Source: Devosia sp. (GTDB lineage: Bacteria; Pseudomonadota; Alphaproteobacteria; Rhizobiales; Devosiaceae). From it: a stretch of 64,000 nt of DNA. A program made the translations under genes and the position numbers. The DNA is taken from positions 1 through 64,000 of the forward strand of contig NZ_JAQGJM010000009.1 in the NCBI RefSeq assembly GCF_028290625.1. Reading direction: 5' to 3'. The stretch's first letter is position 1. Each line of letters opens with the position of its first letter. The notes beneath the pieces are model-generated. The model was not told the DNA's origin, did no database searches, and saw only the letters and a list, made by a program, of their open reading frames with translations. Below are positions 6,189 through 49,082 of the stretch, piece by piece.

Positions 6189-11289
<5,101 letters not shown>

Positions 11290-37399: not shown

Positions 37400-37576
37400 G
37401 ATGGAACGCCTTGTAGTTGTATGAACGTTAATCCAGCGTAACCGATGGTTCTCGATGACGCTAGTGGCACCGCGCAAGTTGTGCCCAGCGGCAATTGCCC
37501 AGACGCATTGCCCCGAAGGGCGGCTTGGCCTACATACGGGGCAAATCCTGTTCCCGTTATCGAGGTTTGCAAGCCG

Positions 37577-39232
37577 ATGGCTCGCCAATTCATCTACCAC
37601 ATGAGCGGAATGTCCAAAGCCTATGCCGGTGGCAAGAAGGTGTTGGACAATATCCACCTGTCCTTCTACCCCGACGCCAAGATCGGCGTGCTGGGCCCGA
37701 ACGGCTCGGGTAAATCGACGCTGCTCAAGATAATGGCCGGGATCGATACCGAATTCACCGGCGAAGCCTGGCTCGCCCAGGGCGCCAAGCTTGGTTACCT
37801 GAGCCAGGAGCCCGAGCTGGATCCGGCGCTGAACGTGCTCGGCAATGTCATGACCGGGGTCAAGGAAAAGAAGGCCGTCATCGATCGTTACAACGAGCTG
37901 ATGATGGACTATTCCGACGAGACCGCCGACGAAGCATCCAAGCTGCAGGACAAGATCGACGCGGAAAACCTGTGGGATCTCGAATCGCAGGTCGAAGTGG
38001 CGATGGAAGCCCTGGGCTGCCCGCCCGGCGATGCCGACGTCACCAAGCTATCGGGTGGCGAACGCCGCCGTGTGGCGCTTTGCGCGCTGTTGCTGAGCAA
38101 GCCCGACCTGCTGCTGCTCGACGAACCCACCAACCATCTCGATGCGGAAACCACCGCCTGGCTCGAACGCCATTTGCGTGAGTTCGAAGGCGCCGTACTG
38201 ATCATCACCCATGATCGGTACTTCCTCGACAACGTGACGGGCTGGATTCTCGAGCTCGACCGCGGCAAGGGTGTGCCTTACGAGGGCAATTATTCCGCCT
38301 ACCTGACTGCCAAGGCCAAGCGCTTTGCGCAGGAGAAATCCGAAGATCAGGCCCGTGCAAAAGTGCTGGAGCGCGAGCGCGAGTGGATGGGGCAGTCGCC
38401 GCAGGCGCGCCAGACCAAGTCCAAGGCCCGCCTCAAGTCCTACGAGGAACTGGTCAAGATCAACGAGGCGCGTACGCAGTCCTCGACCGCCCAGATCATC
38501 ATTCCGGCTGGCGAACGGCTGGGCAATAACGTCATCGATATCGAAGGGCTGTCCAAGTCCTATGGCGATCGGCTGCTGATCGACAACCTGACCTTCAAGC
38601 TGCCCCCCGGCGGCATCGTGGGCATTATCGGAGCCAACGGCGCGGGCAAAACCACGCTGTTCCGCATGCTGACCGGCCAGGAGACGCCTGATTCCGGCAC
38701 CGTGACCATCGCCGACAGCGTCCACATGGGCTATGTCGACCAGAGCCGCGACAGCCTCAATCCCAATAAGACCGTCTGGGAGGAAATCTCCGAGGGTGAT
38801 GAAGTGCTGATGCTGGGCAAGCGCGAGGTGAACTCCCGTGCGTATACCTCGTCGTTCAACTTCAAGGGCGGCGACCAGCAGCAGAAGGTCGGCAACCTGT
38901 CGGGCGGGCAGCGCAACCGCGTGCATCTCGCCAAGATGCTCAAGAGCGGCTCCAACGTGCTGCTCCTCGATGAGCCCACCAACGATCTGGACACCGAAAC
39001 CCTCGCCGCGCTCGAAGAGGCGCTGGAGGAATTCGCCGGCTGCGCCGTGATCATCAGCCATGATCGCATGTTCCTCGACCGGCTGGCGACCCACATGCTG
39101 GCCTTCGAAGGCAACAGCCATGTCGAATGGTTCGAAGGCAACTTCGCCGACTACGAAGCCGACAAAGTCCGCCGCCTCGGCGCCGATGCGGTGAACCCCA
39201 AGCGCGCGACGTATAAGCCGCTGACGCGGTAG
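37577..39232 (+). CDS. ettA: Energy-dependent translational throttle protein EttA
   Basis: ABC-F ATPase that binds the ribosomal E site and gates the first elongation steps according to energy state. The 551 residues hold two ABC domains: Walker A GPNGSGKST near 40-48 and GANGAGKTT in the second, signatures LSGGERRRVALC and LSGGQRNRVHLA, and Walker B LLLDEPTNHLD and LLLDEPTNDLD. The linker contains the charged helical PtIM. The last codons (ATYKPLTR) are duplicated 981 bp downstream, and the original-looking terminator follows that second copy. Confidence 0.95.
   Translation: MARQFIYHMSGMSKAYAGGKKVLDNIHLSFYPDAKIGVLGPNGSGKSTLLKIMAGIDTEFTGEAWLAQGAKLGYLSQEPELDPALNVLGNVMTGVKEKKAVIDRYNELMMDYSDETADEASKLQDKIDAENLWDLESQVEVAMEALGCPPGDADVTKLSGGERRRVALCALLLSKPDLLLLDEPTNHLDAETTAWLERHLREFEGAVLIITHDRYFLDNVTGWILELDRGKGVPYEGNYSAYLTAKAKRFAQEKSEDQARAKVLEREREWMGQSPQARQTKSKARLKSYEELVKINEARTQSSTAQIIIPAGERLGNNVIDIEGLSKSYGDRLLIDNLTFKLPPGGIVGIIGANGAGKTTLFRMLTGQETPDSGTVTIADSVHMGYVDQSRDSLNPNKTVWEEISEGDEVLMLGKREVNSRAYTSSFNFKGGDQQQKVGNLSGGQRNRVHLAKMLKSGSNVLLLDEPTNDLDTETLAALEEALEEFAGCAVIISHDRMFLDRLATHMLAFEGNSHVEWFEGNFADYEADKVRRLGADAVNPKRATYKPLTR
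39204..39232 (+). repeat. 29-bp direct repeat, left copy (ettA 3' end)
   Basis: The final 29 bases of ettA, gcgcgacgtataagccgctg... to the TAG stop. Repeated at 40185-40213 with a single T-to-C change (TAT to TAC, silent if read as ettA). It marks the left edge of a roughly 0.95 kb lower-GC insert. Confidence 0.92.
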
Positions 39233-39238
39233 GATCGG

Positions 39239-40108
39239 GTGACCTTAGACCAGCCCAAGTATGATGAGCTAACGTACGAAGATCGATACGTTGCGTTTGT
39301 CGATATCTTGGGCTGGAGCGCTGCGGTAATGGGTAACCCTACTCAGGATTCACGCCATCTTGGTTGGCTGATAGGCCTGCTGCAAACCGTGGGACAACAG
39401 GCAGCGGCATACGGTTCGTTCTGGGACACGATATCGCTGGGCGTTTCGGGTCCCGATATGTCTGGCAAAATCCAGGCAACGCAGTTTTCGGATTGTATTG
39501 TACTTTCTGCTCTGGCGTCGTCGGAACAGTCCACTGGGCTTTTGACGACCTTTCTCGATCAACTGTGCCTAGTTGCCTGCCTGAGCGGGTTTCTGCTCCG
39601 CGGCGGGATAACCCGGGGCCCCATATATCATCGCGAGGGCATGGTTTACGGGCCGGCGATGATTACCGCCTATAAAATTGAGCGAGATATCGCAGTCTAC
39701 CCGCGAATAGTGTTGGATGAGGCAGTTGAGGCCGAGTTTCAGCATGGCAGCTTGTTGAAGGAGGGGAGCGAGCCTTATGGTTTTCGAAGGTCGTGGCGCA
39801 AAGATTTCGATGGCCGATTTTTTCTGGACTACATGCAGCCGTTCGGGGCGACCGAAATTTATCCAGCGTCCGGTCGTCCGGCCTGGCGCCCAAATATCAA
39901 CTACTTTTCCAATTACAAATATGTCATCTGCAAGGGAATGTACGATGCATCGGGCGATAGTCGCGTTATGGAAAAGTATCTGTGGGCGCGTGACTATTTT
40001 GCGCTTATTTCCGGTGAGTATCCTGAGATAGCGATGCCGATCATTGGGTTGGAACGTGATGGGCGGCTTTGGGGATATGCCAAAGATGAATGGCCATCGC
40101 CTGGGTAG
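39239..40108 (+). CDS. Class III nucleotide cyclase-like protein in an ettA-end insert
   Basis: A 289-residue soluble protein of no named family that I can place. The layout resembles class III nucleotide cyclase catalytic domains: FVDILGWS with Asp22, TQFSDCIVLS with Asp85 and LLRGGITRGPIYHREGMVYGPAMITAYKIER at about 119-149. Asp22 and Asp85 would be the two metal ligands, and TAY-IER matches the cyclase segment carrying the transition-state residues. The GTG start is six bases after the ettA stop, using AGGA of that stop as its ribosome site. The insert's GC is visibly lower than its neighbours, which suggests transfer. Confidence 0.7.
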   Translation: MTLDQPKYDELTYEDRYVAFVDILGWSAAVMGNPTQDSRHLGWLIGLLQTVGQQAAAYGSFWDTISLGVSGPDMSGKIQATQFSDCIVLSALASSEQSTGLLTTFLDQLCLVACLSGFLLRGGITRGPIYHREGMVYGPAMITAYKIERDIAVYPRIVLDEAVEAEFQHGSLLKEGSEPYGFRRSWRKDFDGRFFLDYMQPFGATEIYPASGRPAWRPNINYFSNYKYVICKGMYDASGDSRVMEKYLWARDYFALISGEYPEIAMPIIGLERDGRLWGYAKDEWPSPG

Positions 40109-40184
40109 CCTCCGCCGTTGAATTTCTCACTGTCTTCTTGATTGGCCTTTATCTGTGAGTCTAGTTGGTTGTAGCTACTCCAAA

Positions 40185-40213
40185 GCGCGACGTACAAGCC
40201 GCTGACGCGGTAG
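40185..40213 (+). repeat. 29-bp direct repeat, right copy (ettA-tail duplicate)
   Basis: gcgcgacgtacaagccgctg... to TAG, identical to the end of ettA at 28 of 29 bases but without an ettA gene in front of it. It is followed six bases later by a perfect terminator stem, as expected if this is where ettA originally ended. Confidence 0.92.
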
Positions 40214-40218
40214 ATGTG

Positions 40219-40245
40219 GGCCGGACGGCAAGTCCGGCCTTTTTT
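40219..40245 (+). terminator. Rho-independent terminator, presumed original ettA terminator
   Basis: Perfect eight-pair stem GGCCGGAC/GTCCGGCC with loop GGCAA, followed by TTTTTT. It directly follows the second copy of the ettA tail. Confidence 0.93.
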
Positions 40246-40258
40246 CTGGGAGGATGGA

Positions 40259-40582
40259 ATGCGTTTGCTACTGGGTGTTGTCGCGGTTGCCGCGATGATA
40301 GCGGCACCGGCCTTCGCCAAAGATGCCGATTGCTACACCACGGATGATGGGGATTATCCGTGCAATTTCGAGAGCCTCGACGCCGCGGGAAGCTTTGAGA
40401 TTTCGGCGCCCGGCAAGCCGACATTTCAGGTTTGGATCGACCGGCCGGGTGAGGCCAGCGTTGGCGCAGTATTTGAGGCCGGTGGGCGTTCGGTGCCATT
40501 GCCGGGGACTTATGATCGCTCCGAAGAAGATGGCGCGTGCTGGGTGAGCCGCGAGACGGAAGCGGAACTCTGCGCGTGGTAG
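40259..40582 (+). CDS. Small exported cysteine-containing protein, unknown
   Basis: A 107-residue protein with a signal peptide (MRLLLGVVAVAAMIAAPAFAK). The mature part has four cysteines (DADCYTTDDGDYPCNF, ACWVS, ELCAW) that could form two disulphides in the periplasm. GGGAGG lies five bases before the ATG at 40259. It overlaps the start of the hydrolase gene by a few bases. No family is recognised. Confidence 0.75.
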   Translation: MRLLLGVVAVAAMIAAPAFAKDADCYTTDDGDYPCNFESLDAAGSFEISAPGKPTFQVWIDRPGEASVGAVFEAGGRSVPLPGTYDRSEEDGACWVSRETEAELCAW

Positions 40583-41418
40583 CGACGCCTTTTTCGGTAG
40601 CCGTGCGGGGCGCAACATTGGCGGGCATCGCGGCGGGCGAGGGCCTGCCGGTGGTGTTCTTGCATGCCGGGGTCTGCGACAAGCGGATGTGGCAGAGCCA
40701 GATGGACGAGGTCGCCGAGGAGGGCTGGGAGGCGATTGCCTACGACCGGCGCGGCTATGGCGAGACGGCTTCGGAGGACGTGGCGTTCAACCACGTCGAC
40801 GATCTGGTGGCGGTTCTGGCAGCGCGCGATATCCATGCGGCGGTGTTTGTGGGCTGCTCGATGGGTGGCGGCCTGGCGGTGGATTTCGCCTTGCGCTATC
40901 CGGGCCGCGTGCTGGGGCTGGTGCTGATCGGCACGTCGATCACCGGGGCCCCGTGGGAAGTCAGTGAGATCGAGCGGCAGCTAGAAATGGCCGAGGAAGA
41001 TGCGTTCGAGCGCGGCGATCTCGACATGCTCAACAAGGTGCAGGCGCATGAATGGCTCGATGGGCCACGCGCGGCGAATGGGCGGGTCGGCGGGACAGCG
41101 CGGACGCTGTTCCTCGACATGAATGAGGTGGCTTTGCGCAAGCCCGCACTCACCAAGGAAGAGCCGCGAGCGGATGCCTACCAGCGGATGGACGCGATCA
41201 ATGCGCCGACGCTGTTGATGGTGGGCGACCAGGATTTCAACTACCTGATCGAGCGGCACGATCATTTGTCCGAAGAAATGCCCAACGCGTTTGCGGTGGT
41301 GCTGGAAGATGTCGCGCATATTCCGAGTATCGAGCGCCCCGATCGGGTCAATCCACTGCTGCTGCAGTTTCTGGATGCGATCAGCGGTGACGTGGATGAT
41401 GGGGATGACGAGGATTGA
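40576..41418 (+). CDS. Alpha/beta-fold hydrolase
   Basis: A 280-residue alpha/beta hydrolase. The oxyanion segment VVFLHAGV is followed by the nucleophile elbow GCSMGGG (Ser), catalytic Asp in LMVGDQDFNY and His in EDVAHIPSIERP. The C-terminus is strongly acidic (SGDVDDGDDED). The GTG at 40576 is the preferred start, with GGAA before it and a short overlap with the previous gene. A GTG at 40537 would extend it by 13 residues. The substrate is unknown. Confidence 0.86.
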   Translation: MVATPFSVAVRGATLAGIAAGEGLPVVFLHAGVCDKRMWQSQMDEVAEEGWEAIAYDRRGYGETASEDVAFNHVDDLVAVLAARDIHAAVFVGCSMGGGLAVDFALRYPGRVLGLVLIGTSITGAPWEVSEIERQLEMAEEDAFERGDLDMLNKVQAHEWLDGPRAANGRVGGTARTLFLDMNEVALRKPALTKEEPRADAYQRMDAINAPTLLMVGDQDFNYLIERHDHLSEEMPNAFAVVLEDVAHIPSIERPDRVNPLLLQFLDAISGDVDDGDDED

Positions 41419-48943: not shown

Positions 48944-49082
48944 CCCTCACCCTGATTTTCTGCTGAACGCAGAAAATCTGTCCCTCTCCCACAAGGGGCG
49001 AGGGCTGGCCTGGTGGTCGTCTAAGCCACGATGCCCCCTTCTCCCCTTGTGGGAGAAGGTGCCCGAAGGGCGGATGAGGGGT
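48944..49082. repeat. Long imperfect palindrome (family B)
   Basis: Outer arms cccctcaccct and gcggatgagggg, inner arms ctctcccacaaggggcgagg and cccttctccccttgtgggag, with a further small hairpin gattttctgc...gcagaaaatc. The arrangement closely matches the copy at 52953-53090. Confidence 0.85.

Follow-up and report, generated by a model that had tools for sequence, protein, structure and literature searches.

The window analysed here is a 64,000-nt stretch of a Devosia sp. genome in which ettA, encoding an ABC-F ATPase, is followed by a gene for a 289-aa class III cyclase-like protein. An earlier reading made from the sequence alone (the sequence-only reading) had described this gene as lying in inserted DNA of lower GC content, bracketed by a repeat of the ettA tail with one silent change. 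The last 29 bp of ettA indeed recur as a direct repeat behind the gene, with 28 of 29 positions identical; the sole mismatch, TAT versus TAC, leaves Tyr in both copies. No third copy with up to three mismatches was found in the window, and a chance repeat was ruled out, since 100 shuffles gave an expectation of 0. The 952 bp between the copies contain a single complete open reading frame (ORF), running from a GTG to a TAG. Together with copy 2 (39233-40213) this DNA has a GC content of 53.0%, compared with 62.9% for the window, and only 0.06% of 980-bp windows are as GC-poor. GC at third codon positions is 0.58 in the inserted gene and 0.82 in ettA. An AGGA motif overlaps the ettA stop codon and lies 4 nt upstream of the GTG, where it may serve as the ribosome site that the sequence-only reading saw as borrowed from ettA. 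Downstream of copy 2 is a hairpin followed by a T run (GGCCGGAC...GTCCGGCC-T6), while the hairpin finder returned none within 60 nt after copy 1. From this anatomy, with a 6-nt gap between the genes and a shared terminator, ettA and the cyclase-like gene are predicted to be co-transcribed. An integrase or transposase domain, reported absent before, was found in none of 10 neighbouring ORFs (33.6-48.0 kb), a scan in which serine recombinases were not searched for. The six PF00589 matches of the genome, five of them above the cut-off, are all on other contigs.

The gene was gained recently and precisely between the ettA stop codon and its terminator. In a genus set of 75 genomes, the window's own included, it was present only in the window's genome, which rules it out as a core gene of the genus. 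By comparison, ettA was matched at E ≤ 1e-150 in 69 of the 75, and the ettA-tail pattern (up to three mismatches) in 70. Two such patterns at one locus occurred only in the window's genome; in G014 and G017 a second match with three mismatches is on another contig. The closest relative, G058, whose ettA is 99.6% identical in protein and 92.5% in DNA over 1241 bp, has an empty site consisting of ettA, 6 nt and then the terminator. A hairpin starts within 60 nt after the ettA stop in 56 of 64 relatives. Because of this empty site and these hairpins, we conclude that the insert entered between stop codon and terminator and left ettA intact, and relatives lacking it exist as had been anticipated.

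Structure comparison assigned the class III catalytic fold to the 289-aa protein, as its layout had suggested, with a helical C-terminal part beyond that fold. Identity in the listed structure alignments with class III cyclases was 7-19%. The fold carries both metal-type aspartates, one on strand 1 and one at the strand 2-3 turn. Across 15 divergent family members D85, R121, G122, G127 and E148 were invariant and D22 was conserved in at least 90%; D22 and D85 presumably bind metal. Pfam, NCBIfam and PADLOC gave no match to the protein, and it has no anti-phage annotation. A viral fold library gave one match at E ≤ 0.001, a Harvfovirus protein.

We also examined the ettA 3′ flank in other genomes. 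Annotation covered chosen ORFs out of the 177 in this survey, so the numbers given for defence cargo are minimum values. The interval from ettA to the first native gene exceeded 1 kb in 30 of 58 loci, the window's included, whereas the control interval between the hydrolase and host-attachment genes never exceeded 464 bp in the same loci (7 of 65 loci, lacking a flank gene, were excluded). The flanks on this side are conserved and the cargo is variable, including defence genes: Type II, methyl-directed or DpnI-type restriction genes lie at this position in some other Devosia, two Mesorhizobium and one genome of another family. PF06044 (DpnI) was found in 3 of the 75 genus genomes, each time behind ettA, with the match starting at base 332 after the stop in G051, 1447 in G013, where DUF2971 precedes it, and 122 in G027 (a fragment). 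In the order sample it was found in 6 of 297 genomes, and the copy in G144 is ~30 bp behind ettA. G032 has a BglII-type endonuclease 13 nt after the ettA stop, with an MT-A70 methyltransferase, and G014 has an MT-A70 gene with a gene for a 363-aa protein. In G038 a methyl-directed endonuclease gene starts 17 nt after the stop on the same strand, a geometry much as in the window. Neither the G038 nor the G032 nuclease has a copy in other genus genomes; because these queries were picked for their position at ettA, the searches show only the lack of copies elsewhere. A candidate in G033 is weak (PDC-S11, 0.0015). Five of nine other cargo genes have a low GC content like the insert (0.50-0.54), while two DpnI and two MT-A70 genes are at 0.57-0.60. 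The literature searches gave no report of insertions at ettA or of Devosia islands with restriction genes, which is no proof of absence.

Several further features of these loci were observed. The DpnI genes behind ettA are convergent with it in L033 (G051), L209 (G013), L208 (G027), L142, L172, L125 and L227 (G144), which come from Devosia, Mesorhizobium and a further family in the order, and several have a 96-aa partner gene. This cysteine-rich protein (L172 6561-6851; L226 4315-5363 in G265) accompanies DpnI even away from ettA; it is zinc-ribbon-like by eye, has no Pfam match and possibly has an accessory or control role. A short DpnI-like match ~2.8 kb behind ettA in G023 (L202 3030-3149; 47 aa, 47%, E 3e-4) is perhaps a remnant. 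The 363-aa MT-A70 partner in G014 (L218 4292-5380) has no Pfam or PADLOC match and may be a restriction enzyme.

Homologues of the cyclase-like protein (~20-37% identity) were found in 55 of 72,556 plasmid records, and among 396 further genomes in the order sample 5 had one. A profile matched in 15 of 384 other class-sample genomes; one match is a canonical cyclase (L098) and three have internal stops. An origin as a phage gene was rejected after a search of 50,697 phage records without a match. Scans of IMG/VR and of genome contigs with the 289-aa protein also gave no relative, although such scans reach close relatives only. For the neighbour scan, 10 of the 55 plasmid records were fetched and ten neighbours were chosen from five of them; of the five fetched loci left out, three are one copper island. 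In Agrobacterium fabrum, GajA and GajB (Gabija) start 444 bp 3′ of the homologue, in Ruegeria AbiEii ends 13 bp upstream, and in A. tumefaciens Dsr1 ends 148 bp upstream. With this 13-bp spacing the Ruegeria homologue (L080 3043-4813) could pass for the third member of an AbiE operon. Two other scanned homologue loci showed no clear defence system, the Cas4-like match in L077 being weak. Tail-like repeats were sought around homologues at 25 loci, the window's included, and only the window's reached 26 points; the next best was a 19-bp palindromic match in L089.

A survey of 153 ettA loci, some genomes being represented twice, gave a clear second ettA tail downstream in four, each ending at the stop codon. 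Besides the 29 bp in the window these are 49 bp (75%) in L172 and 84 bp (79%) in L142, both Mesorhizobium, and 127 bp (78%) in L125, from a Devosia metagenome-assembled genome. Weaker self-matches were left uncounted: a 39-bp match in L157 (E 8.6e-6) whose end does not coincide with the stop, one on the minus strand in L048 (1e-4), one in L038 (0.001) and further ones with values higher than 0.001. Behind the second tail, L142 and L172 carry the 96-aa gene and then a DpnI-family gene (PF06044, 5.8e-66 and 1.6e-68), and in L125 a DpnI homologue is ~3.3 kb behind ettA. The L125 tails have 28 differences in 126 bp, distributed over codon positions as 10/3/15. This pattern suits the ends of two separate functional ettA genes better than a single decaying copy, and recombination between the resident gene and incoming DNA carrying an ettA end of its own would be expected to leave it. 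The two copies in the window are too alike to choose between entry routes. Directly after its ettA-tail fragment L125 also encodes a 446-aa protein (6539-7879) with no Pfam or PADLOC match, which is PD-(D/E)XK-like by eye.

We believe that the locus is probably a single-gene foreign insert in a defence hotspot on the 3′ side of ettA, with no visible integrase. Incoming DNA may have recombined within or next to ettA, by homologous or homology-assisted recombination on one side and illegitimate joining on the other, which would leave ettA intact and, as a remnant, part of a second ettA tail. Excerpts of PMC5635113 describe hotspots that lack integrases and show recombination in the core genes at their flanks. 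The gene would be read from the ettA transcript through the overlapping ribosome site. Its protein could use two metals to bind a nucleoside triphosphate, make (or sense) a nucleotide signal during phage infection, and act either through its own helical C-terminal part or on a target whose gene lies elsewhere. Because of the restriction and defence hotspot, the class III fold and the position of some distant homologues next to Gabija, AbiE and Dsr1, a solitary nucleotide-signalling defence gene is the most likely identity. The sequence-only reading had raised defence as a hypothesis; restriction genes at the site in the genus and the defence neighbours of distant homologues favour it, and the function itself we infer.

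Several results weigh against this interpretation. Recognised restriction genes are few, being found behind ettA in at least 6 of 64 other genus loci, and many of the long intervals hold clade-native genes. In G265 a close DpnI locus lies away from ettA, judged from 12 kb of sequence, and for four divergent PF06044 matches there is no ettA within ~1.5 kb. On retesting 65 genus loci the tail repeat was present only at the window's, and in L125, L142 and L172 the restriction-type genes lie 3′ of the second tail and not between the tails. The signal for a foreign ettA tract in the window's genome is weak, 5.4% of windows being as extreme. No effector gene lies beside the cyclase-like gene. The Asn and Arg of the VNxAAR motif are the transition-state residues of class III cyclases. 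The motif is present in L098, but the 289-aa protein has MITAYK; catalysis is unsure because the two positions are Ile142 and Lys146 and both vary across the family.

Two other routes of entry were considered. The repeats may be attL and attR of a tyrosine-recombinase element at the ettA 3′ end, now a shrunken remnant or cargo mobilised in trans, with its integrase lost or supplied in trans. We regard this as possible but doubtful. The near identity of the copies speaks for it, as only 3.9% of 2016 genus ettA-tail pairs differ by at most one base in 29 bp, and so do direct repeats of which one restores the gene end, together with the empty site. However, neither the insert nor the scanned neighbours hold an integrase, an exact search of IMG/VR with the degenerate tail pattern gave 0 matches, and no integrase-bearing element with the same att core turned up in limited sampling. 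A fixed att core is not supported, since the tail fragments differ in length among ettA loci, a second tail near ettA is confined, within the genus set, to the window's genome, and the six PF00589 proteins have no match in the DNA available from behind the ettA of relatives. Site-specific 3′-end integration, favoured by the sequence-only reading, is further weakened by the retested loci, in which no genus relative carries different cargo between the same repeats. Alternatively, one event could have inserted the gene and copied a stretch of the ettA tail; excerpts of PMC3874152 and PMC3031569 describe insertions of this type, proposed for restriction-modification genes, with long duplications of variable length. 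The varying repeat lengths, the nearby restriction genes and the lack of any transposase found would fit such a target duplication, which we nevertheless consider rather unlikely: the L125 differences favour two working ettA genes over decay, the DNA between its tails is merely 143 bp, and the restriction genes at three loci are outside the tails. Least convincing is the idea of a passenger gene that plays no part in defence, a non-catalytic class III cyclase relative that arrived by chance at a permissive site; the altered Asn/Arg positions, the clade-native genes without evident defence role behind ettA and the absent anti-phage annotation agree with it, but the residues conserved among divergent members, the restriction of DpnI to the ettA flank among the genus genomes and the homologues adjoining known defence systems make it unlikely.

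If the insert is a solitary signalling defence gene, a more far-reaching form of that proposal can be stated. EttA is a sensor of ribosome energy. A one-gene immune system, in which a solitary cyclase-fold protein of altered catalysis is placed on the EttA transcript as a bare cassette at the ettA stop without its own recombinase, alongside restriction genes at the same site across Hyphomicrobiales, is a long shot. The ettA 3′ flank is a small, easily mined landing site where restriction genes come in singly or in small groups, and other uncharacterised genes there are therefore candidate new defence systems. The unclassified cyclase-fold family, present on plasmids and chromosomes and in some cases beside Gabija, AbiE or Dsr1, is suited to phage assays.

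Table 1. Features of the ettA locus, in positions of the window
Feature	Position	Strand	Basis
ettA, ABC-F ATPase, intact; anchor of the probable hotspot	37571..39232	+	two ABC_tran stretches, Pfam 1.6e-56; start codon position provisional
ettA tail copy 1, end of the functional gene, stop TAG	39204..39232	+	repeat comparison
AGGA, Shine-Dalgarno-like, overlapping the ettA stop	39231..39234	+	sequence
Foreign insert, 952 bp, 53% GC	39233..40184	+	composition; gene missing from 74 other genus genomes
Class III cyclase-fold protein, 289 aa; presumed metal ligands Asp22 and Asp85	39239..40108	+	
ettA tail copy 2, ends at TAG	40185..40213	+	repeat comparison
ettA terminator, now 3′ of the inserted gene	40218..40246	+	hairpin and T run; equivalent in G058 directly after ettA
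Small ettA neighbour, part of the genus, native flank	40259..40582	+	no Pfam match; positions in relatives
Alpha/beta hydrolase, conserved native flank	40576..41418	+	Pfam 4.3e-20; start codon position provisional

In G058 (L003) the small gene after the ettA terminator is almost wholly lost. Elsewhere in the window an exact 22-bp direct repeat, GTGGGAGAAGGTGCCCGAAGGG, occurs at 49049 and 53057, a spacing of 4 kb.

The 289-aa protein has its fold in common with class III adenylate and guanylate cyclases (Rv1625c, PDB 7yz9; soluble guanylate cyclase). It differs from them in lacking the Asn/Arg pair and any Pfam, NCBIfam or PADLOC match, and in its extra helical C-terminal part. It resembles PycC of Pycsar in the class III fold, the metal aspartates and the likely defence setting. 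The locus is not a Pycsar operon, because no PycTM or PycTIR effector adjoins the gene, its neighbours being ettA, a small Pfam-less protein and a hydrolase; PADLOC did not match the protein, PycC clades A-E were not compared directly, and the absence of PycC chains from the fold matches listed has no bearing either way on kinship. Cis-mobilizable and integrative mobilizable elements (CIMEs and IMEs) at the 3′ ends of housekeeping genes, as described in excerpts of PMC5704250, have direct repeats of which one restores the gene end, as here. In contrast to these, the present insert is 1 kb with one gene and no integrase, and there is no fixed core across the four tail-fragment loci. The integrase-poor hotspots of PMC5635113 and the Pseudomonas aeruginosa core defence hotspots of PMC10250203 have, in the excerpts consulted, conserved flanks, variable cargo containing defence genes and no recombinase seen, which is also the situation at ettA. 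They differ in that the anchor here is ettA in Devosia and some other Hyphomicrobiales, the recognised cargo is one to three genes, and ettA-tail fragments accompany it at a few loci.
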